The notes beneath the pieces were generated by a model. It searched no databases, was not told the DNA's origin, and saw only the letters and a list, made by a program, of their open reading frames with translations. Of a stretch of 38,398 nucleotides of DNA, positions 4,002 to 38,398 are shown in pieces (the first letter of the stretch is position 1; each line of letters opens with the position of its first letter). Origin of the DNA: a virus. Both the position numbers and the translations under genes were made by a program. The stretch is from positions 1-38,398 of the IMG/VR virus record IMGVR_UViG_3300028115_000053; one strand, written 5' to 3'.

Positions 4002-4373
4002 TTATTGTTCGTCTAATACTTTGTTTACGAATTCTAAATACAATATATCTTCATCGTTTATTCCCCTATAGGTCAAAGTTACCTCTGCTCTAATTGTGTG
4101 ATCTAAAATAAAAATACTGGTATCTATTAAATCTACTCTGGGGTCTGTATCTATAATTCGTTCTATATCTTCTTTTACTAAATCTTCTGTAAGATCATCT
4201 TCTGGGTTCATTAATAGATCCCAAATAATAGACCCAAATTGTGGTCTCATTAATCTTTCGCCCTTGCGTGTATGAAAATGGTTTAAAAGATCTCTTTTTA
4301 CAAGTTCTTTATCTATAAGAGTATAAGGCGCTCTTGCCTTATCTATTGTACTAAATCCTTTAAACATTGCCAT
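4002..4373 (-). CDS. 25: Baseplate wedge protein gp25
   Basis: About 123 residues from the ATG at 4373; an in-frame ATG at 4388 would add MINTC. The segment HTRKGERLMRPQFGSIIWDLL, followed by an acidic helix and DPRVDL, is the gp25/GPW lysozyme-like fold shared by T4 gp25 and type VI secretion TssE. This fold has no muramidase activity in T4-like baseplates and links wedge to sheath. I place the start at 4373 because the upstream ATG at 4388 lies inside the late promoter box (4379-4386), so a late transcript would not contain it. That leaves almost no leader and no Shine-Dalgarno sequence, so the exact start is uncertain and a third in-frame ATG at 4367 is also possible. Followed after 2 nt by gp6. 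Confidence 0.88.
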   Translation of the reverse strand: MAMFKGFSTIDKARAPYTLIDKELVKRDLLNHFHTRKGERLMRPQFGSIIWDLLMNPEDDLTEDLVKEDIERIIDTDPRVDLIDTSIFILDHTIRAEVTLTYRGINDEDILYLEFVNKVLDEQ

Positions 4374-4378
4374 ACAAG

Positions 4379-4386
4379 TATTTATC
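4379..4386 (-). promoter_or_regulatory. Late promoter box for gp25-gp6
   Basis: GATAAATA on the minus strand, in context TTATGATAAATACTTG. It has the same core as nine other intergenic boxes in this window and resembles the T4 late box TATAAATA. It overlaps the upstream candidate gp25 start codon. Confidence 0.7.
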
Positions 4387-4416
4387 ATAATAATTAAATA
4401 TAGTTTTAATAAGATA

Positions 4417-4488: not shown

Positions 4489-4674
4489 ATGGAAATATCA
4501 TTAAACAACACCCTAGAAGAAGAACTAAGAGTAATGCTTGTTGATAAAAATAATGAATGTGCCGCTCTAAGAGCTCATATTGAATTATTGGAAAAAGCAG
4601 TAGCAGAAGAGCAAGAGCAAAAATATAGATTGCTTGTTGAGAATGCTGATCTTAAAAAGTTAATTAAAACTTAG
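4489..4674 (+). CDS. Small coiled-coil protein of unknown function
   Basis: 61 residues, starting after a good Shine-Dalgarno (GAGGAG, 7 nt upstream). The sequence is almost entirely heptad-like and charged, with Leu/Ile at regular spacing, so a single amphipathic helix or coiled coil is expected; no Cys pairs, signal peptide or membrane segment. I do not recognise a family. It is the only plus-strand gene inside the minus-strand baseplate block and has its own sigma70-type promoter, so it should be expressed early, not with its neighbours. Its stop overlaps the stop of the convergent lysozyme-like gene by 3 nt. The promoter, ribosome site and compact placement argue that it is real. Confidence 0.7.
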   Translation: MEISLNNTLEEELRVMLVDKNNECAALRAHIELLEKAVAEEQEQKYRLLVENADLKKLIKT

Positions 4675-5321
4675 TAAATAGGGTAATTCGGATTATCTGG
4701 TAGATCGCCTGGTTCTACAGGTTGTCCAGTCACTGGGTCATCATTAATGAATTTTTTAGCCTCTAATTCTGCTAAGGCTTCTTTTTTATATTTTTTTAAT
4801 TTCGCTGTTAATTGGGCCCAAGTCAAACTGGAGCCTTCACTTGGTTTATAATCAAAATTTACAAAGTCTGGTGTTGTGAATAATTCTGCTTCAAATCTTC
4901 TTCTATCAGCATATTCTTTTTTATACTGCGGTGGAGTATTATCATTTATAGGGCCTTTCCTCCATCTTTGAATCAAGCCGGGTATTCTTTCGTAAAATTC
5001 TTTATTAAGTTCTCTTACTATTGTGCTTTTTGCAAAATTCTTTGGTCCTATATGCATTGCCAAACTTACTAGAGAAATGAATTGAAAATCACTTATTTTG
5101 ACCTTGATTAATTTTTTCACAGCAACTGATGCCTCCTCTGCCTGTGATATAATTGTCATATTAGTTCCAACTGGGCCTAGACCGTTAGAAAAATCAACAA
5201 GTTTTGTTCCTTTTTTGTCTACTAAAATAATACTTGGGCCATCTATAATTGGTTCTATGCCTTCTTTTAAAAGTCCCTCAACTATGTCTTTAAATAATTT
5301 TATATTTGTATTACTTGCCAT
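4671..5321 (-). CDS. Virion-associated protein with lysozyme-like C-terminal lobe
   Basis: 216 residues. Residues about 78-125 read ISLVSLAMHIGPKNFAKST, then REL...FYERIPGLIQRW; this matches the C-terminal lobe of phage GH24 lysozymes (ALISFAYNVG..F..STLLRKLN...Y..A...L.RW in the P21/lambdoid type), and ADRRRFEAELF matches their RRR.AE..LF end. The N-terminal catalytic lobe (the E-8-D/C-5-T glutamate region) is not visible; residues 1-75 are something else. It is therefore probably catalytically inert or acts with a partner. It starts at the TAATG stop/start overlap with the gp5-like spike, so the two are translationally coupled. In T4 the lysozyme domain is inside gp5; here it seems to be a separate, degenerate neighbour. 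Inference: hub-associated structural protein. Confidence 0.6.
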   Translation of the reverse strand: MASNTNIKLFKDIVEGLLKEGIEPIIDGPSIILVDKKGTKLVDFSNGLGPVGTNMTIISQAEEASVAVKKLIKVKISDFQFISLVSLAMHIGPKNFAKSTIVRELNKEFYERIPGLIQRWRKGPINDNTPPQYKKEYADRRRFEAELFTTPDFVNFDYKPSEGSSLTWAQLTAKLKKYKKEALAELEAKKFINDDPVTGQPVEPGDLPDNPNYPIY

Positions 5322-10603: not shown

Positions 10604-10905
10604 TATCTACCTCTAAATCTTAATACAATATTCTCTGCCGGTAGTTTGATTGTTTTACCTGCTTTGAAATCTCGTATAGGGTCACGTATTTCATCTAAAT
10701 TTCTCATAGCAAAAACCCACCATAGTCTAGAACTTTCGTATAATTGGTATGCTAAAAGATCAGGCCTTTCATCATATTGTTGAGGTATTACATAATCTTC
10801 ATCATAAGGTGATGCTTGTATTGTAGGTAACTTATTTACATCCAAAAATTTTCCTTCCATGACTGAAAAATTTTTAATAAATGATTCGTTAGTATAAGTA
10901 GCCAT
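10603..10905 (-). CDS. 53: Baseplate wedge protein gp53
   Basis: 100 residues. The segment RPDLLAYQLYESSRLWWVFA followed by MRNLDEIRDP and a short basic end (KTIKLPAENIVLRF) is the recognisable gp53 signature, ending in a LysM-like strand. T4 gp53 is about 196 aa, so this is the short form typical of marine T4-like phages. In T4 it completes the wedge and is needed for wedges to join around the hub. It overlaps both neighbours by a single stop/start base, so gp48, gp53 and the hub gene form one tightly coupled operon. Confidence 0.88.
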   Translation of the reverse strand: MATYTNESFIKNFSVMEGKFLDVNKLPTIQASPYDEDYVIPQQYDERPDLLAYQLYESSRLWWVFAMRNLDEIRDPIRDFKAGKTIKLPAENIVLRFRGR

Positions 10906-11917: not shown

Positions 11918-12778
11918 ATGGCACAGCCTAAAAAAGTTAATTATCTTAATAATAGAGATATATTAAAAGAAATACACAAAAGCAAGATGTCTTTTTGCTA
12001 TCTTGCAGACGAAAAATATTCTATATTTGATATCATATTAGAAGATGTCAAAAAAATCAATAGAAACAGCATAAAATTAGCCAGAGAAAACAGGGCCGCT
12101 AGGATACAATATGATGGGTATCAGGCCGCAATGGCAACACATGATGTTAAGGATTATAAAAATAAACCCAAACAAAAAGAATTTGCTGTAGACCCTAAAG
12201 AGATACCCTTAGAGGATTTAGTATTTAGGGTTATGACATATGATCATATTCCAGATGCCCCAGGCAGAAAGAAAAATCCCAAAAACGAAGCAGAAACCAA
12301 AGAAAGAGTAAACTTCCCTGCATATAAACATTATGCTTATATAAATGATGAACTTAAAGAAGTTGCTAGAAGCCATTGGGAGGGCAGTTTAAGTAATGGG
12401 CACTTTAGTGTTTCTCATGGAACCCTAACAAATAAATTAGGAATCATGTTTTTAAAACTAGTTGAAAGATATAGTCATAGATCTAATTGGCGTGGATATA
12501 CTTATGTTGACGAAATGCGAGGACAAGCAATTCTTCAATTAGCACAAATTGGATTGCAATTTAACGAAGCAAAATCAGATAATCCATTTGCATACTATAC
12601 TGCGGCGGTTAATAATAGTTTTACAAGAGTTCTTAATATGGAAAAAAGGAACCAAACAATCAGAGACGATATTTTAATAGACTCTGGACATTTACCAAGT
12701 TATGGCAGACAAATAAGGCACGAAGAAGAAATGAGAGCCATTAGAGAATCTGCACAAAATGAATCAAACCCAGAATAA
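11918..12778 (+). CDS. 55: Late-transcription sigma factor gp55
   Basis: 286 residues. The stretch LMFLKLVERYSHRSNWRGYTY-like (about 184-203), then VDEMRGQAILQLAQIGLQF and NPFAYYTAAVNNSFTRVLNM, is the conserved sigma region 2-like core of T4 gp55, which binds the host RNA polymerase core and recognises the single late box around -10. The N-terminal 150 residues are longer than in T4 gp55 (185 aa total) and contain a basic linker (GRKKNPKNEAETKERVN). It has a strong early promoter and GAGGAG ribosome site, as expected for a protein that must accumulate before late genes are read. The ten GATAAATA boxes in this window are its likely targets. Confidence 0.92.
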   Translation: MAQPKKVNYLNNRDILKEIHKSKMSFCYLADEKYSIFDIILEDVKKINRNSIKLARENRAARIQYDGYQAAMATHDVKDYKNKPKQKEFAVDPKEIPLEDLVFRVMTYDHIPDAPGRKKNPKNEAETKERVNFPAYKHYAYINDELKEVARSHWEGSLSNGHFSVSHGTLTNKLGIMFLKLVERYSHRSNWRGYTYVDEMRGQAILQLAQIGLQFNEAKSDNPFAYYTAAVNNSFTRVLNMEKRNQTIRDDILIDSGHLPSYGRQIRHEEEMRAIRESAQNESNPE

Positions 12779-21023: not shown

Positions 21024-22745
21024 ATGAGTTGGAGAAAATACTTTTCTAGTGTCGATAACAGTGGTTTACCATTAAATGTAACAGGTAATACCCCTGAAGG
21101 AGGCCCAGGAGCGGCAACAAGCAGATATGCTAGTTGGTTGCCGGAAGTTTATGCCGGTTCTCCTAACCGTTTGATGAGATATATGCAATATGATCAAATG
21201 GACAATGACTTAGAAATCAATTCAGCATTGGACACAATAGCAGAATTTGGTACTCAAGAAGATGAATATAGTGGACTTCCTTTTGAAATAAACTATAATA
21301 GAGACCCTTCTGACACAGAACAAAAGATAATTACTAAGACCCTAACTCAATGGTGCAGGCTCAATGAGATGCATAAAAGAGCATTTAGAGTGTTCCGTAG
21401 CACTATAAAATACGGTGATCAATTCTTTATTAGAGACCCAGAGACTTATAAATTATTTTGGATAGACCCTGCTAATGTAGAGAAAGTTATTGTTAATGAA
21501 AGTGAAGGCAAAAAGATAGAAACATATTTCATTAAAAATTTAGAACCTAACTTTGCAGATATGGTTGCTACAGATGTGTCCGGATTACATGCAAGGCCAT
21601 ATGGCTCCGGTGCCGGAATGATGGGCGGTGGACTTCAAGGACCGCAAACTGGTAACTATTTAACTGGTGCAATAGACGGTGTAGACCAGGGTGTTCCTGT
21701 AGATGCAAAACATGTTGTTCATATAAGTTTAACTGAAGCAATGGACCATGCATGGCCTTTTGGTGTAAGTATTTTAGAACCAATATTTAAAGTATTCAAA
21801 CAAAAAGAATTATTAGAAGACAGTATTATTATATACAGGGTTCACAGAGCACCTGAAAGACGTGTGTTCTTTATTGATGTGGGTAACATGCCACCACATA
21901 AAGCAAGACAGTATTTGGAACAAGTAAAATACGAAGTACAGCAAAAACGTGTTCCTAATAAAAAGTCAGATGGCAGTAGTGTTGCAGATGCGGCCTACAA
22001 TCCAATGAGTATGTTAGAAGATTACTTCTTTGCACAAACGGCAGATGGTAGAGGTAGTAAAGTAGACACACTACCAGGCGGTGAAAACTTAGGACAAATA
22101 GACGATTTAAGATATTTTAATAATAAACTTTTAAGAGGTTTAAGAGTACCAAGCAGTTACTTGCCTACTGGACCAGAAGATGGAAGTAGTGTTTATAACG
22201 ACGGTAAAGTGGGTATTGCTTACATTCAGGAATACAGATTTGCTAGATACTGTGAAAGATTACAAAAACAAATACAAGAAGATTTAGATACAGAATTCAA
22301 AATGTTCCTCAAACACAGAGGTATAGAATTAGATAATTCAGATTTCTTTATTACATTTAATAAACCAATGAACTTTAGTTCATATAGAGACCTACAAATT
22401 GATCAGGAAAGAGCTAACTTGTTTAATACATTGGCGGCTACACCGTTCTTAAGTAATCAATTTAAATTGAAGAAATATCTAGGTCTTACAGAAGACGAAT
22501 TTAAAGACAACGAAGAATTATGGCGTAAAGAAAACGGTTATGAAAAATTTGTTGATGGTGAAAAACAAGCAGATCTCAGAAATCTTGGTATAAGACCAGA
22601 GCCTGATGCATCGGTAACACCTGGAGCAGATTTAGACTTTGGTGATTTACCTGATCAAGCAATGGATAATACAGACGATCTAGGCATAAATACTACTGAT
22701 ACAAATCCAAACCAAATACCTGGTGGGAATACACCAGAACTTTAA
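21024..22745 (+). CDS. 20: Portal vertex protein gp20
   Basis: 573 residues (T4 gp20 is 524). SRYASWLPEVYAGSPNRLMR, then YDQMDNDLEINSALDTIAEF and a later FRSTIKYGDQFFIRDPE match the gp20 portal family used as a marker for marine T4-like phages; a LRGLRVPSSYLPTGPEDGSS-type segment follows near residue 375. Twelve copies form the ring at the unique capsid vertex through which DNA is packaged, and which nucleates the prohead. The C-terminal ~50 residues are acidic and Asn/Asp-rich. It opens the head gene block and is followed after 1 nt by a small gene. Confidence 0.95.
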   Translation: MSWRKYFSSVDNSGLPLNVTGNTPEGGPGAATSRYASWLPEVYAGSPNRLMRYMQYDQMDNDLEINSALDTIAEFGTQEDEYSGLPFEINYNRDPSDTEQKIITKTLTQWCRLNEMHKRAFRVFRSTIKYGDQFFIRDPETYKLFWIDPANVEKVIVNESEGKKIETYFIKNLEPNFADMVATDVSGLHARPYGSGAGMMGGGLQGPQTGNYLTGAIDGVDQGVPVDAKHVVHISLTEAMDHAWPFGVSILEPIFKVFKQKELLEDSIIIYRVHRAPERRVFFIDVGNMPPHKARQYLEQVKYEVQQKRVPNKKSDGSSVADAAYNPMSMLEDYFFAQTADGRGSKVDTLPGGENLGQIDDLRYFNNKLLRGLRVPSSYLPTGPEDGSSVYNDGKVGIAYIQEYRFARYCERLQKQIQEDLDTEFKMFLKHRGIELDNSDFFITFNKPMNFSSYRDLQIDQERANLFNTLAATPFLSNQFKLKKYLGLTEDEFKDNEELWRKENGYEKFVDGEKQADLRNLGIRPEPDASVTPGADLDFGDLPDQAMDNTDDLGINTTDTNPNQIPGGNTPEL

Positions 22746-33045: not shown

Positions 33046-36000
33046 ATGGCAACAGCAATTCAAAGAAGAAGAGGTACCACTAGCCAACATAGTAGTTTTA
33101 CTGGTTTGGCAGGTGAGATCACGATAGATACAGATTTAAATACCGTCATAGTTCATGATGGTTCAACAGCAGGTGGTTATAGACTTGCAAAATATACTGA
33201 AGTACAAGCGGCGGCGGCAGGTGATATTACATCTGTTGTAGCAGGTTCTGGTTTAACAGGCGGTACTACAAGTGGTGACGCAACTATAGCCATAGATTAC
33301 GAAAACCTTTCAGGTAACTTGGTTCCAAGTGCAAACAACACTTACAGTTTAGGTACAGCAAGTAATGTTTGGAAAGATGTTTTTGTTGGACCAGGATCAT
33401 TATATGTTAACGGACAACAAGTAATTTCAGATAACTCAGGTACTATTCAAATTAGTGCAGATGCAGGACAAAACATTAGTATTGTAACATCTGGTGCAGG
33501 TAGTGTTGAACTTACATCAGGTTCTGGTGTAATTGAAATGAAATCTAATGTACAAATGACATCAGGAAAAACAATTAGCACAGCAGGTGGCGGTGCTACC
33601 ACACAAGGTGGTAATATTGATATGGATAGTAACAATATTAACAACTTGGATGATCCAGTTGTGGCGCAAGATGCGGCTACTAAGGCATACGTTGATGCAC
33701 AACTTTTAACACAAGATAATACAGATGAAATAACAGAAGGTTCAACTAATCTTTACTTTACAAATGCAAGAGCAGATGCTAGAGTACAAGCGGCAATCGA
33801 TACAGATACTGCTTTTGGTAGTGCTTCAGATTCTTTAGTACCATCACAGTTAGCAGTTAAAACATACGTTGATGCACAAGTTGATACAGTAGATGCTTTA
33901 AGTGAACTAAGTGGTGACACAGATGATGTTACTGAAGGTTCAACTAATTTATACTATACAGATGCTAGATCAAGAGCGGCAATTAGTGTTACTGATTCAG
34001 GTGGCGATGGTTCTTTAGCATACAATAGTTCTACTGGTGTTATTACATATACAGGCCCAAGTGCTAGTGAAGTAAGAGCTCACGTTAGTGCTGGTGACGG
34101 TTTAGATGTTAGCAGTGGTTCTTTCTCAGTAGACAATACTGTAGTAAGAACAAGCGGCACACAAACAATCGCAGGTGCTAAAACATTTAGTGATGATGCA
34201 GTATTTAGTGGTAACTTAACTGTAAGTGGAACACAAACAATTTTAAATACAGAAACCTTAACTGTAGATGATAACTTAATCGTACTTAACAATAACGAGT
34301 CTGGAACCCCTAGCCAGAACGCAGGTATTGAAGTTGAACGTGGAACATCAGCAAATAAAACTTTAGTATGGAACGAAGGAACAGATAAATGGTCTGTAGG
34401 TACTGAAACATTTGTTGCTGGAACATTTGAAGGTGATGTAACTGGTACAGTAAGTGATATTAGTAACCATGATACTGATGATTTATCAGAAGGTTCAACT
34501 AATTTATATTACACAACCGCACGTTGGGATACCAAAATGGCGGCGGCTACTACTGATGATCTTACAGAAGGTTCAAACTTATATTATACTGATGCAAGAG
34601 CAGATGCTAGAATTAGTAATGCTATTGTTGATGAAGATAACATGGCATCAAATAGTGCCACACAAATACCTTCACAACAAAGTGTTAAAGCATACGTTGA
34701 CTCACAAGTAGCAGGTAAAGATGCTTTAAGTGAACTAAGTGGTGATACTGATGATGTATCAGAAGGTTCAACTAATCTTTACTTTACAGATGCAAGAGCA
34801 AGAGCAGTTGTAAGCGGTAGTACAGGTGTTACATATAACAGTTCAACTGGTGCTATTAGTATAGGACAAGATGTTGGTACCACAGATGATGTACAGTTTG
34901 GTAATGTAACAGCAGATTTAACTGGTGACGTAACAGGTCAAGTTAGCGACATAAGTAATCACCTTTTAGATGAAGATAACATGGCATCCAATAGTGCAAC
35001 TAAAGTTCCTTCACAACAAAGTGTTAAGGCATACGTTGATGCACAGGTTGATACAGCAGACTCTTTAGGTGAACTAAGTGGTGATACTGATGATATAACA
35101 GAAGGATCATCAAACTTATTCTTTACAAACGCAAGAGCAGATGCTAGAATTACAGCGGCATTAATTGACGAAGACGATATGTCATCAGATAGTGCTACTA
35201 GAATCCCTTCACAACAAAGTGTTAAGGCATATGTTGATTCACAAGTTGATACAGTAGATGCTTTAAGTGAACTAAGTGGTGATACTGATGATGTATCAGA
35301 AGGTTCAACTAACTTATATTTCACAAACGCAAGAGCAGATGCAAGAGCAGATGCTAGATTTGATGTTAAACTAGCGGCGGCTGATACAGGCGACCTAACT
35401 GAAGGTTCAAATTTATATTATACTGATGCAAGATCCAGAAGTGCTATATCAGTAACAGATGCAGGTGGAGATGGTTCTTTAGGTTACAACAGTTCAACTG
35501 GTGTTATTACATATACAGGACCAAGTGCTAGTGAAGTAAGAGCACATTTAAGCGGTGGCGATGGTATAGATTTTGCAAGTGGTGTTATTGATGTAGACAC
35601 ATCAGTTGTTAGAACATCTGGAAGTCAAACTATTGCAGGTTCTAAAACTTTTAGTGATGATGCAGTATTTAACGGTAATTTAACAGTTAATGGTACACAA
35701 ACTGTTCTTAATACAGAAACTTTAACTGTAGATGACAATGTAATCATACTTAATAATAATGAAACTGGTACACCTTCACAAAATGCAGGTATTGAAGTTG
35801 AACGTGGAACAGGTACAAACGTAACTTTACAATGGAACGAGTCTGGAGATAGATGGCAGTTCACAAACGATGGTTCAACATTCTACAACTTGGTTGTAAA
35901 CTCTGATGACGTTGCAGAAGGCTCTACTAATGAATACTTTACAGATGCAAGAGCTCAGGCGGCAATTAGTGTTACTGATGCAGGTGGAGACGGTAGTTTA

Positions 36001-37572
36001 AGTTACAGTAGTGGTACAATTACATATACAGGACCAAGTGCAAGTGAAGTAAGAGCTCACTTTAGCGGTGGTACTGGTATTACATATGATAGTTCAACTG
36101 GTGCAATTAGTTTAACAGATACAGGTTACTTAACAGGTGTAACAGCAGGTAGTGGTTTAACTGGTGGCGGTGCAAGTGGTACTCCAACTATTAATGCAGT
36201 AGGCGGTTATGGTATTACTGTAAATGCTGATGATATAGAAGTTGCAAATGCAGATATCAGAGGATTGTTTAGTGCTAGTGGAGATATTTCATATAACAGT
36301 ACAACAGGTGTGTTTAGTTTCACTAATGACGCGGGTGACATAGAAAGTGTTACTGCTGGTACTGGTTTAAGCGGTGGCGGCTCTAGTGGTGCAGTTACAT
36401 TGAATGTAGACTTATCAGAACTTACTGATATGACAGCAGGTATGACAGGCTCAGATGAGTTTATTGTATTGGATGCAGGTGCTGATAGAAGAAAAGCGGC
36501 AAGTGAGATTGGATTAAGTATATTTAATAACGATGCAGGCTTTACTACTAACGTAGGTGATATTACAGGTGTTAGTGCAGGTACAGGATTAACAGGTGGC
36601 GGTTCAAGTGGTAGTGTTACATTATCATTAGCAACTTCAGGTGTTACTGCGGCAACTTACGGTGATGCTGATAGTGTTTCCCAAGTAGTGGTCGACGCAT
36701 ATGGTAGAATTACAAGTGCAAGTAGTGTTGACATTGCTATTGCAAGTTCACAAGTAAGTGGATTGGCAGCATCGGCAACAACTAATGCTCTTAACGCAAG
36801 TAATATTAGTTCAGGTACATTGGCAAGTGCTAGATTACCAGACTTAGCAGTATCAGACTTTGGTGGCTCAGCAATCCAAACTGGTTCAGAATCATTTAGT
36901 GATAGTGATACAGTATTGATGACAGCGGCGGCGGTTCAAGACAAGATCTTAAGTTATGGTTATACAACTAATGTTGGTGACATAACAGGTGTTACAGCAG
37001 GTAGTGGTTTAACTGGTGGTGGTAGTTCAGGTACTCCAACAATTAATGTTGGTGCAGGTTCATACATTAATGTAGCGGCAGACAGTATTAGTGTTGACGC
37101 AACAACTACAAATACAGCAAGTAAAGTTGTAGCCAGAGACGCTTCTGGTAACTTTGCGGCAGGTACAATCACTGCAACGGCAACAAACGCTCAATATGCT
37201 GACTTGGCTGAGAACTATGAAGCAGATGCAGAATACGAAGCAGGAACAGTAGTGTGCTTTGGTGGTGAAAAAGAAATCACAGCATGTGATGTTGAATTAA
37301 GCCATGCAGTTGTAGGTGTTATTAGTACAGACCCAGCACATTTAATGAACAGCGAATGTCCAGGTATAGCATTACCAGTAGCATTAGCAGGACGTGTACC
37401 ATGTAAAGTGGTAGGCCCTGTTGCTAAAGGAGATTTAATTGTAAGTTCAGCAGAAAGTGGACATGCTAAAGCAGACAACAACGCATCAGCAGGTAGAATA
37501 ATTGGTAAAGCAATTGGTTCTAAAGACGGCGAAGATGCAGGTATTGTTGAAGTATTAGTTAATATGATGTAA
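33046..37572 (+). CDS. Long tail fibre-like protein 3 (largest)
   Basis: 1508 residues. The N-terminus (AIQRRRGTTSQHSSFTGLAG, then EITIDTDLNTVIVHDGSTAG) is a typical start of marine phage fibres. The shaft repeats units such as SELSGDTDDVSEGSTNLYF.DAR and DEDNMASNSAT.IPSQQSVKAYVD several times, plus two 137-codon copies at 33982-34392 and 35446-35856. The C-terminal 130 residues (QYADLAENYEADAEYEAGTV, then VVGVISTDPAHLMN) match the end of fibre 1. Probably a trimeric long fibre used for host recognition. Repeats and shared ends suggest that it changes by recombination with fibre 1. Ends just before a strong terminator. Confidence 0.78.
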   Translation: MATAIQRRRGTTSQHSSFTGLAGEITIDTDLNTVIVHDGSTAGGYRLAKYTEVQAAAAGDITSVVAGSGLTGGTTSGDATIAIDYENLSGNLVPSANNTYSLGTASNVWKDVFVGPGSLYVNGQQVISDNSGTIQISADAGQNISIVTSGAGSVELTSGSGVIEMKSNVQMTSGKTISTAGGGATTQGGNIDMDSNNINNLDDPVVAQDAATKAYVDAQLLTQDNTDEITEGSTNLYFTNARADARVQAAIDTDTAFGSASDSLVPSQLAVKTYVDAQVDTVDALSELSGDTDDVTEGSTNLYYTDARSRAAISVTDSGGDGSLAYNSSTGVITYTGPSASEVRAHVSAGDGLDVSSGSFSVDNTVVRTSGTQTIAGAKTFSDDAVFSGNLTVSGTQTILNTETLTVDDNLIVLNNNESGTPSQNAGIEVERGTSANKTLVWNEGTDKWSVGTETFVAGTFEGDVTGTVSDISNHDTDDLSEGSTNLYYTTARWDTKMAAATTDDLTEGSNLYYTDARADARISNAIVDEDNMASNSATQIPSQQSVKAYVDSQVAGKDALSELSGDTDDVSEGSTNLYFTDARARAVVSGSTGVTYNSSTGAISIGQDVGTTDDVQFGNVTADLTGDVTGQVSDISNHLLDEDNMASNSATKVPSQQSVKAYVDAQVDTADSLGELSGDTDDITEGSSNLFFTNARADARITAALIDEDDMSSDSATRIPSQQSVKAYVDSQVDTVDALSELSGDTDDVSEGSTNLYFTNARADARADARFDVKLAAADTGDLTEGSNLYYTDARSRSAISVTDAGGDGSLGYNSSTGVITYTGPSASEVRAHLSGGDGIDFASGVIDVDTSVVRTSGSQTIAGSKTFSDDAVFNGNLTVNGTQTVLNTETLTVDDNVIILNNNETGTPSQNAGIEVERGTGTNVTLQWNESGDRWQFTNDGSTFYNLVVNSDDVAEGSTNEYFTDARAQAAISVTDAGGDGSLSYSSGTITYTGPSASEVRAHFSGGTGITYDSSTGAISLTDTGYLTGVTAGSGLTGGGASGTPTINAVGGYGITVNADDIEVANADIRGLFSASGDISYNSTTGVFSFTNDAGDIESVTAGTGLSGGGSSGAVTLNVDLSELTDMTAGMTGSDEFIVLDAGADRRKAASEIGLSIFNNDAGFTTNVGDITGVSAGTGLTGGGSSGSVTLSLATSGVTAATYGDADSVSQVVVDAYGRITSASSVDIAIASSQVSGLAASATTNALNASNISSGTLASARLPDLAVSDFGGSAIQTGSESFSDSDTVLMTAAAVQDKILSYGYTTNVGDITGVTAGSGLTGGGSSGTPTINVGAGSYINVAADSISVDATTTNTASKVVARDASGNFAAGTITATATNAQYADLAENYEADAEYEAGTVVCFGGEKEITACDVELSHAVVGVISTDPAHLMNSECPGIALPVALAGRVPCKVVGPVAKGDLIVSSAESGHAKADNNASAGRIIGKAIGSKDGEDAGIVEVLVNMM
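33982..34392 (+). repeat. Fibre 3 internal repeat, copy A
   Basis: 137 codons from ISVTDSGGDGSL to NEGTDKW; same length as copy B with many synonymous differences. Confidence 0.88.
35446..35856 (+). repeat. Fibre 3 internal repeat, copy B
   Basis: 137 codons from ISVTDAGGDGSL to NESGDRW; no length change relative to copy A. Confidence 0.88.
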
Positions 37573-37587
37573 ACTTTACAAAACTTA

Positions 37588-37620
37588 AAAAAAAGAGGAG
37601 CATTTATGCTCCTTTTTTTT
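37588..37620 (+). terminator. Rho-independent terminator after fibre 3
   Basis: A run, then AGGAGCA, loop TTTA, TGCTCCT and a long T run (7-bp stem, extended by A-T pairs). Confidence 0.9.
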
Positions 37621-37647
37621 GATCAAATAAAATACATACAAAAAAAT

Positions 37648-37655
37648 GATAAATA
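37648..37655 (+). promoter_or_regulatory. Late promoter box for the membrane protein genes
   Basis: GATAAATA (context AAATGATAAATACAACT), 34 nt before the ATG at 37689. Confidence 0.7.
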
Positions 37656-37688: not shown

Positions 37689-37985
37689 ATGGAAGATATC
37701 TTTAAATTAATTGCAGAGGTAGGCGCTCCGATTGCCGGTAGTCTTGTAATGGGCTTTTTTATCTTTTTGGTGATTAAGCAAATTATGGAAGGTATCGTTG
37801 ATCAAGTAAAAACACTTACAGGTTTTTGTAAGATGTTAGAAGCAAGAGCAAGTACAATGAGTAATGAAATGATGAAAATTGATTTGCTAGTTAGTAGTGC
37901 CTTAGAATTAAGACCAGATATAGAACGTATCGCAAGAGCAGAAAACTTCGTCGAAGACGGCAAGGTTGATGCTAGGAGAGATTAA
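37689..37985 (+). CDS. Small single-pass membrane protein, holin-like (1)
   Basis: 98 residues. A short N-terminal part is followed by one hydrophobic helix (about residues 13-32, APIAGSLVMGFFIFLVIKQI) and a charged helical tail. Layout resembles small phage membrane proteins of the BhlA/UviB holin-like type, but the family is not certain. It is followed by a paralogue-like gene with the same layout, overlapping as TAATG, and then by a CsgF-like gene. Possible roles: lysis or envelope change late in infection. Confidence 0.6.
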   Translation: MEDIFKLIAEVGAPIAGSLVMGFFIFLVIKQIMEGIVDQVKTLTGFCKMLEARASTMSNEMMKIDLLVSSALELRPDIERIARAENFVEDGKVDARRD

Positions 37986-38278
37986 TGGATATTGCTCAAT
38001 TAATTTCTGAATACGGATTTCCGGTTGTTATGGCTGTAGGGTTGGGTTACTTTATATACTTTATATGGAAGTTTATAGGTGAGCATATAGATCCTGCATT
38101 ACAGGATATGCATATTGCTCTTATAAGAGTAATTGATAAAACTCGTATGCTAGATCAGGATATGATACGTTTACAACAGAAAGTAAATGTAGTGTTGGAA
38201 TACAAAGCAACACAAAAAATTCTAGAGCAAAACAAAATGAAAGAGGCTCTAGAAAAACAGGAAGGGAAGAAAAAATGA
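37985..38278 (+). CDS. Small single-pass membrane protein, holin-like (2)
   Basis: 97 residues. One hydrophobic helix at about residues 10-31 (YGFPVVMAVGLGYFIYFIWK) then a charged helix with Leu/Ile spacing and a Lys-rich end (EKQEGKKK). Same size and topology as the preceding gene, with a similar start (IAQLISEYGFP against IFKLIAEVGAP), so the two are probably an old duplication acting as a pair. Its stop overlaps the start of the next gene. Confidence 0.6.
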   Translation: MDIAQLISEYGFPVVMAVGLGYFIYFIWKFIGEHIDPALQDMHIALIRVIDKTRMLDQDMIRLQQKVNVVLEYKATQKILEQNKMKEALEKQEGKKK

Positions 38279-38398
38279 AATTTATTTTACCAGTAGCATT
38301 CTTATTATCAATTTTTAGTTTTAGTTTATCTGCAGATGAGATAAAGTTTAAATTTAAAAATCCAAGTTTTAGTGGCTCAGGAACAGGTGCTCACTATT
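38276..38398 (+). CDS. CsgF-like secreted protein (5' part only)
   Basis: Starts at the ATG overlapping the previous stop (ATGA) and runs off the right edge; 41 residues visible. Residues 1-19 (MKFILPVAFLLSIFSFSLSA) are a clear signal peptide. The mature start, DEIKFKFKNPSFSGSGTG, resembles CsgF, the curli assembly factor whose mature N-terminus (TFQFRNPNFGG) plugs into the outer-membrane pore CsgG. CsgF/CsgG-like genes have, as I recall, been reported in marine T4-like phages of heterotrophs. A CsgG-like gene would be expected next, outside the window. Confidence 0.6.

Follow-up and report, generated by a model that had tools for sequence, protein, structure and literature searches.

What is encoded at the right-hand end of the viral DNA analysed here, a window of 38,398 nucleotides (nt) comprising positions 1 to 38,398 of IMG/VR record IMGVR_UViG_3300028115_000053? 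Between positions 37689 and 38398, two genes for small membrane proteins (here termed P1 and P2) lead into a gene for a CsgF-like protein that is cut by the end of the window. A first-pass annotation of this DNA proposed an envelope pore or lysis unit built from curli secretion parts. Our comparisons indicate that a curli (type VIII) secretion module carried by a phage probably begins in this region, and that P1 and P2 probably form a dedicated inner-membrane component of export rather than part of a lysis unit. The region contains the following features.

37689..37985, plus strand: P1, 98 amino acids (aa), with a single transmembrane (TM) segment and the C-terminal motif GKxDxRxD (phrog_18771, E 2e-22; alignment).
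37985..38278, plus strand: P2, 97 aa, with a single TM segment and the motif RMLDxDMIRLQxKVxxVLE (phrog_18771, E 5e-25).
38275..38398, plus strand: the N-terminal 41 residues of CsgF, cut by the window end, with a signal peptide and the CsgG-binding motif FKFKNPSFSG.

The CsgF open reading frame (ORF) overlaps P2 by four bases (ATGA), and the 41 of its codons that fall within the window specify a signal peptide followed by KFKFKNPSFSGSG. When searched alone against Pfam, this fragment reaches E 0.007 and 16.9 bits, below the cut-off of 25.8 bits. The full-length CsgF proteins of near relatives are 163 aa long and 83-88% identical to it over the 41 residues, and the two that were scanned match PF10614 at 5.6e-12 and 4.3e-13. 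In E. coli CsgF, the segment FQFRNPNFGG is the one that plugs CsgG. The CsgF profile aligns to this same segment in a PDB search (6l7a, E 0.045). The annotated CsgF with its signal peptide and pore-plug motif is thus real, as its full-length relatives pass PF10614. An AlphaFold2 model based on 16 relatives is of low confidence (predicted local distance difference test, pLDDT, 65), and Foldseek returned nothing significant for it.

Five IMG/VR contigs (L004, L005, L006, L085 and L086) align up to the window end with 82-84% nucleotide identity and reveal what follows. A CsgG of 341-345 aa comes after CsgF in all five, so the gene whose presence downstream had been set beforehand as a test is found in every near relative that continues. 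Beyond CsgG, a curlin-repeat protein is encoded in four of the five contigs, and FecR in three of those (one cut by the contig end). A second curlin-repeat protein is present in L005 and L006, and L006 reaches the start of a cyclase gene. Over the relatives, the usual order is P1-P2-CsgF-CsgG-curlin-FecR-curlin-cyclase. The equivalent proteins of phage Melnitz match the Pfam families CsgG (1.2e-48), Curlin_rpt, FecR (3.7e-10), and CHASE2 (8e-41) with Guanylate_cyc (1e-18). Searched as a profile, phage CsgG matches its E. coli counterpart at 1e-71. The Phe of the pore loop aligns, whereas the Tyr and Asn that lie in the constriction of the E. coli protein do not.

Fibre export is favoured over a bare pore because curlin-repeat proteins are encoded beside CsgG and CsgF. 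Alternatively, the CsgGF pore might serve the uptake or leakage of nutrients through the outer membrane, with the curlin-repeat proteins being vestigial. Uptake has been proposed (PMC7029224; PMC9599517), and the modules are described as having no CsgE gate (PMC9599517). This function is quite improbable given that curlin-repeat genes are retained in nearly every sufficiently long module, usually in two copies, and that CsgF, which a bare pore would not need, is also kept. The succession of curlin-repeat, FecR, and cyclase genes after CsgG likewise marks a fibre-export module and speaks against a lysis unit.

The frames of P1 and P2 overlap by one base (TAATG), and each protein has a single hydrophobic segment (the highest hydropathy over 19 residues is 2.32 for P1 and 1.76 for P2). 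These ORFs are not chance occurrences, because P1/P2-type proteins are conserved over hundreds of IMG/VR contigs. Profile comparison (hhalign probability 96.7, 23% identity) identifies the two proteins as distant paralogs, and they occur as a doublet. Alignments reveal a conserved G11 followed by RMLDxDMIRLxxK in P2 and the conserved GKxDxRxD at the end of P1. In the AlphaFold2 model of P2 (pLDDT 90), a short helix at the N-terminus precedes a second one spanning residues 12-96, which suggests a TM helix that continues into a probable coiled coil. Both flanks of the membrane segment are negative, so that the positive-inside rule favours neither orientation. No convincing Pfam enzyme domain was detected in P1 or P2, and matches of the pair to PDB sequences were set aside as generic coiled coils.

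The predicted architecture bears on another label. Podoviral pelagiphages of the HTVC023P type share CsgF, CsgG, curlin repeats, FecR, and cyclase with the modules described here and have one or two leading genes, which a survey of type VIII secretion systems in pelagiphages called histidine kinases (PMC9599517). By that label, the pair would be a sensor histidine-kinase-like signalling element. P1 and P2 do not resemble one: at ∼93-98 aa they comprise just a TM helix and a long helix, the members scanned against Pfam and NCBIfam have no HisKA or HATPase match, and the AlphaFold model shows one helix and lacks an ATPase domain. A kinase function for the pair is therefore highly improbable. The histidine kinases of the survey may be genes other than P1 and P2.

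How tightly is the pair bound to the curli module? In 159 loci gathered mostly through the P1/P2 pair, CsgF is present in 155 and CsgG in 145. The four pair loci that have no CsgF are truncated by contig ends, either no more than ∼470 bp from P2 or within the pair itself. As a counter to the circularity of this sample, 80 loci were found from CsgG alone, and in most of them the doublet lies directly before csgF. The exceptions in placement are instructive. In L238 and L239 the pair is split, with one gene on each side of csgF. In L241, where the contig begins just before, one copy is located between csgF and csgG. In L256, L269, L287, L296, and L308 the pair neighbours the module but is encoded on the other strand, with only one of its genes within reach in L269; over their entire length, the records of L269 and of L271/L272 contain two copies each. 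The pair keeps its neighbourhood despite these shifts in place and strand, and therefore a functional tie to the module is likely.

The same association is found in larger virus records and in isolates. Among 23 such records (14 chosen by portal protein, six by the pair, and three by CsgG), the presence of the pair and of CsgG agrees in all 23, with both in 12 and neither in 11. Larger records with the pair always hold two copies. Among phage isolates, the pair is carried only by HTVC008M and the Melnitz strains, which are also the isolates with this CsgG, distant or unrelated matches aside.

The pair was not found within 1.5 kb of csgF in five true alphaproteobacterial csg operons. No true pair was detected in 385 alphaproteobacterial genomes, where the strong matches come from a phage-contaminated metagenome-assembled genome (MAG), G004, and two others are weak (E 7e-4 and 9e-4). 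Matches on bacterial genome contigs were rejected as evidence of a bacterial pair: they lie on MAG contigs that resemble binned phage and carry the same module or are cut right after the pair. On contigs assigned to MAGs of Planctomycetes, Bacteroidetes, and Rhodobacteraceae (L160-L164 and L310-L314), the pair is mostly accompanied by the full module, with four or more modules in one of the Rhodobacteraceae bins. These modules are probably due to binning contamination. In five short contigs (L259, L260, L266, L267, and L273), no P1 or P2 is present, and a different small membrane protein (MWKNITDTIGNITTVAVQLIGLSV...) is encoded between csgF and another phage gene that looks gp32-like by eye. 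This protein may be a P1/P2 substitute or simply a neighbour.

Could the pair instead be a two-gene holin (holin and antiholin), with the CsgGF pore aiding release and the whole forming a lysis unit? The first-pass description of two small holin-like proteins in overlapping frames was accurate as to small membrane proteins and to the overlap, and less so as to holin likeness. The pair has features general to holins, being small tandem paralogs behind a late promoter, each with a single TM segment and a charged tail (hydropathy and AlphaFold helix). A holin family, phrog_4898, is matched weakly by residues 2-19 of the window's P2 (E 0.0019) and by 24 of 30 P2 members over ∼18 residues (best member E 0.00013). 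This match is restricted to the N-terminal GFP motif. YvrJ and the small membrane proteins of PHROG 4898 share with the pair a short N-terminal 'GFPIV' motif leading into a TM helix, whereas the long conserved coiled-coil half of P1 and P2 has no counterpart in them. A pinholin-like role for CsgG in Melnitz has been the subject of published speculation (Buchholz et al., PMC9004378).

Several observations count against a holin. The pair tracks the curli module and not an endolysin: the sole endolysin-like match among the window proteins scanned (4671-5321, minus strand; phrog_10457, 6e-13) lies amid baseplate genes 32 kb away. The pair is not found in curli-free T4-like phage isolates, which must and do lyse their hosts. 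In addition, CsgG of E. coli resides in the outer membrane, whereas pinholins act in the inner membrane. We consider a holin function for the pair, and with it the lysis unit of the first-pass annotation, to be unlikely.

If the region does begin an export module, CsgG would form the outer-membrane pore, into which the N-terminal FxNPxFxG segment of CsgF would plug, and curlin-repeat proteins would be exported late in infection. P1 and P2 might act jointly as a hetero-oligomeric coiled-coil pair in the inner membrane that serves export, for example, by gating, by energising, or by passing on substrate in the role of CsgE, which is missing. The exported fibres would most likely coat or link infected cells, leading to the capture of siblings or the exclusion of competing phages.

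Several points weigh against this interpretation. The window itself stops inside csgF, before CsgG; the module is known here from sequence alone; and the role of P1 and P2 as an export component is drawn from linkage rather than homology. Among the CsgG-selected loci, ∼15 have no pair within 7 kb, all of them fragments. The 11 larger records with neither pair nor CsgG are also fragments, so their absences are only suggestive. Furthermore, clumping of the curli type was looked for with phage Melnitz and was not seen (PMC9004378).

The sequence preceding P1 indicates when the module might be expressed. The relevant features upstream are as follows.

33046..37572, plus strand: a large structural/tail-fibre-like protein of 1508 aa (phrog_697 structural protein, 5e-44; phrog_9648 tail, 7e-12).
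37596..37621, plus strand: a hairpin resembling an intrinsic terminator, AGGAGCAT/ATGCTCCT, with a T run after it (the palindrome is symmetric).
37648..37655, plus strand: a T4-type late promoter element, GATAAATA, 40 nt 5′ of P1.

The hairpin separates the fibre gene from the curli module, and similar hairpins are present in relatives. The terminator scan listed it on the minus strand; a T run closes it on the plus strand as well. In 75 of 82 relatives that are not near-identical, ATAAATA lies no more than 150 nt 5′ of P1, compared with 4.7 in dinucleotide shuffles (maximum 10), indicating that the upstream element is not due to chance. The late-promoter reading of GATAAATA is sound because elements of the same type recur 25-121 nt ahead of the window genes at 10905 (minus), 17331 (minus), 18306, 21024, 26992, 30615, and 33046, and because a late sigma factor of the T4 type is encoded in the window itself (11918-12775; phrog_12791, 2.8e-94). 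The annotated single late promoter after a terminator is thereby supported, and region 37689-38398 is predicted to be transcribed from it late in infection.

A side observation concerns late genes more generally. Distances from ATAAATA to the next ATG that opens a frame of at least 80 codons were counted in loci L004-L159, L230-L309, and L409-L410 (HTVC008M). A distance of exactly 12 nt was counted in 140 cases from 28 protein groups, whereas spacings of 10, 11, 13, and 14 nt each account for 4-9 cases; the loci are related, and the counts are not independent. The 12-nt spacing is present before P1 in 52 loci and before csgF in 31. It applies to 8 of 16 cases in the 100 kb of HTVC008M examined, and to 0 of 17 in the T4 stretch examined, where spacings are 19-42 nt. 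The peak is shifted as expected with the overlapping control motifs TAAATAA (11 nt) and AATAAAT (13 nt), and the control motifs ATTAAAT and ATAATAA yield no comparable peak at 12 nt. Transcripts from T4-type late promoters start ∼12-13 nt past the first A, and therefore the start codon would be expected at the very 5′ end of these mRNAs. Many late genes of this phage group thus appear, from spacing, to be leaderless, a property not mentioned in the papers we found. For the gp25-like baseplate gene at 4002-4388 (minus strand), the true start is probably 4373 (MAMFKGF...) rather than 4388; the late promoter 12 nt before 4373 overlaps the first codons of the longer ORF.

The portal protein of the window (21024-22742) is nearest to those of the jumbo T4-like phages PA5oct, Phosso, Atu_ph07, and 121Q, and not to those of marine cyano- or pelagimyophages (36% identity to HTVC008M over part of the protein). 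It shares 67-77% identity with the portals of three contigs that carry the pair, including a contig of 339,794 bp. The window thus appears to derive from a marine T4-like phage of a second, jumbo-related lineage with the module, a call made from the portal and contig sizes for a record that is a 38-kb fragment. Other pair-bearing contigs have portals just 31-36% identical over half the length, whereas their P1 proteins are up to 84% identical to that of the window and their CsgG proteins up to 65% identical to that of L005. This disparity suggests that modules are exchanged between phage lineages, and slower evolution of P1 could alternatively contribute to the gap.

Pelagimyophage HTVC008M and the OM43 phage Melnitz (PMC7029224; PMC9004378) have the same genes in the same order as the relatives of the window. 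Their P1 and P2 are 46-49% and 41-47% identical to those of the window, and their CsgG is 45-48% identical to that of L005. They differ from the window in that their module follows a gp32/2-oxoglutarate (2OG)-oxygenase region rather than a tail-fibre-like gene, and in belonging to another T4-like lineage by portal. With E. coli curli export (PDB 6l7a, 6lqh, and 4uv3), the phage modules share CsgG and the N-terminal plug motif of CsgF, the part to which the match of phage CsgF is confined. No CsgE, CsgD, or CsgC was seen in the phage modules, which in turn add P1/P2, FecR, and cyclase.

The curli module of marine phages, including speculation on lysis, has been published previously, and a wide oceanic distribution has been described for such modules (PMC9599517). 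New here are the P1/P2 paralog doublet, its linkage to the module, and its poor fit to the histidine kinase label. A fixed pair within the module offers a concrete handle on whether these two genes serve export, gating, or lysis. That a second T4-like lineage, one related to jumbo phages, also carries the module argues for its spread between phages as a unit, under selection. We also put forward, tentatively and with slightly more doubt than conviction, that P1 and P2 could be a hitherto uncharacterised, obligate two-protein inner-membrane component of viral curli secretion that replaces CsgE or host factors and moves with the module between unrelated T4-like lineages. If so, phage type VIII secretion would constitute a distinct subtype.
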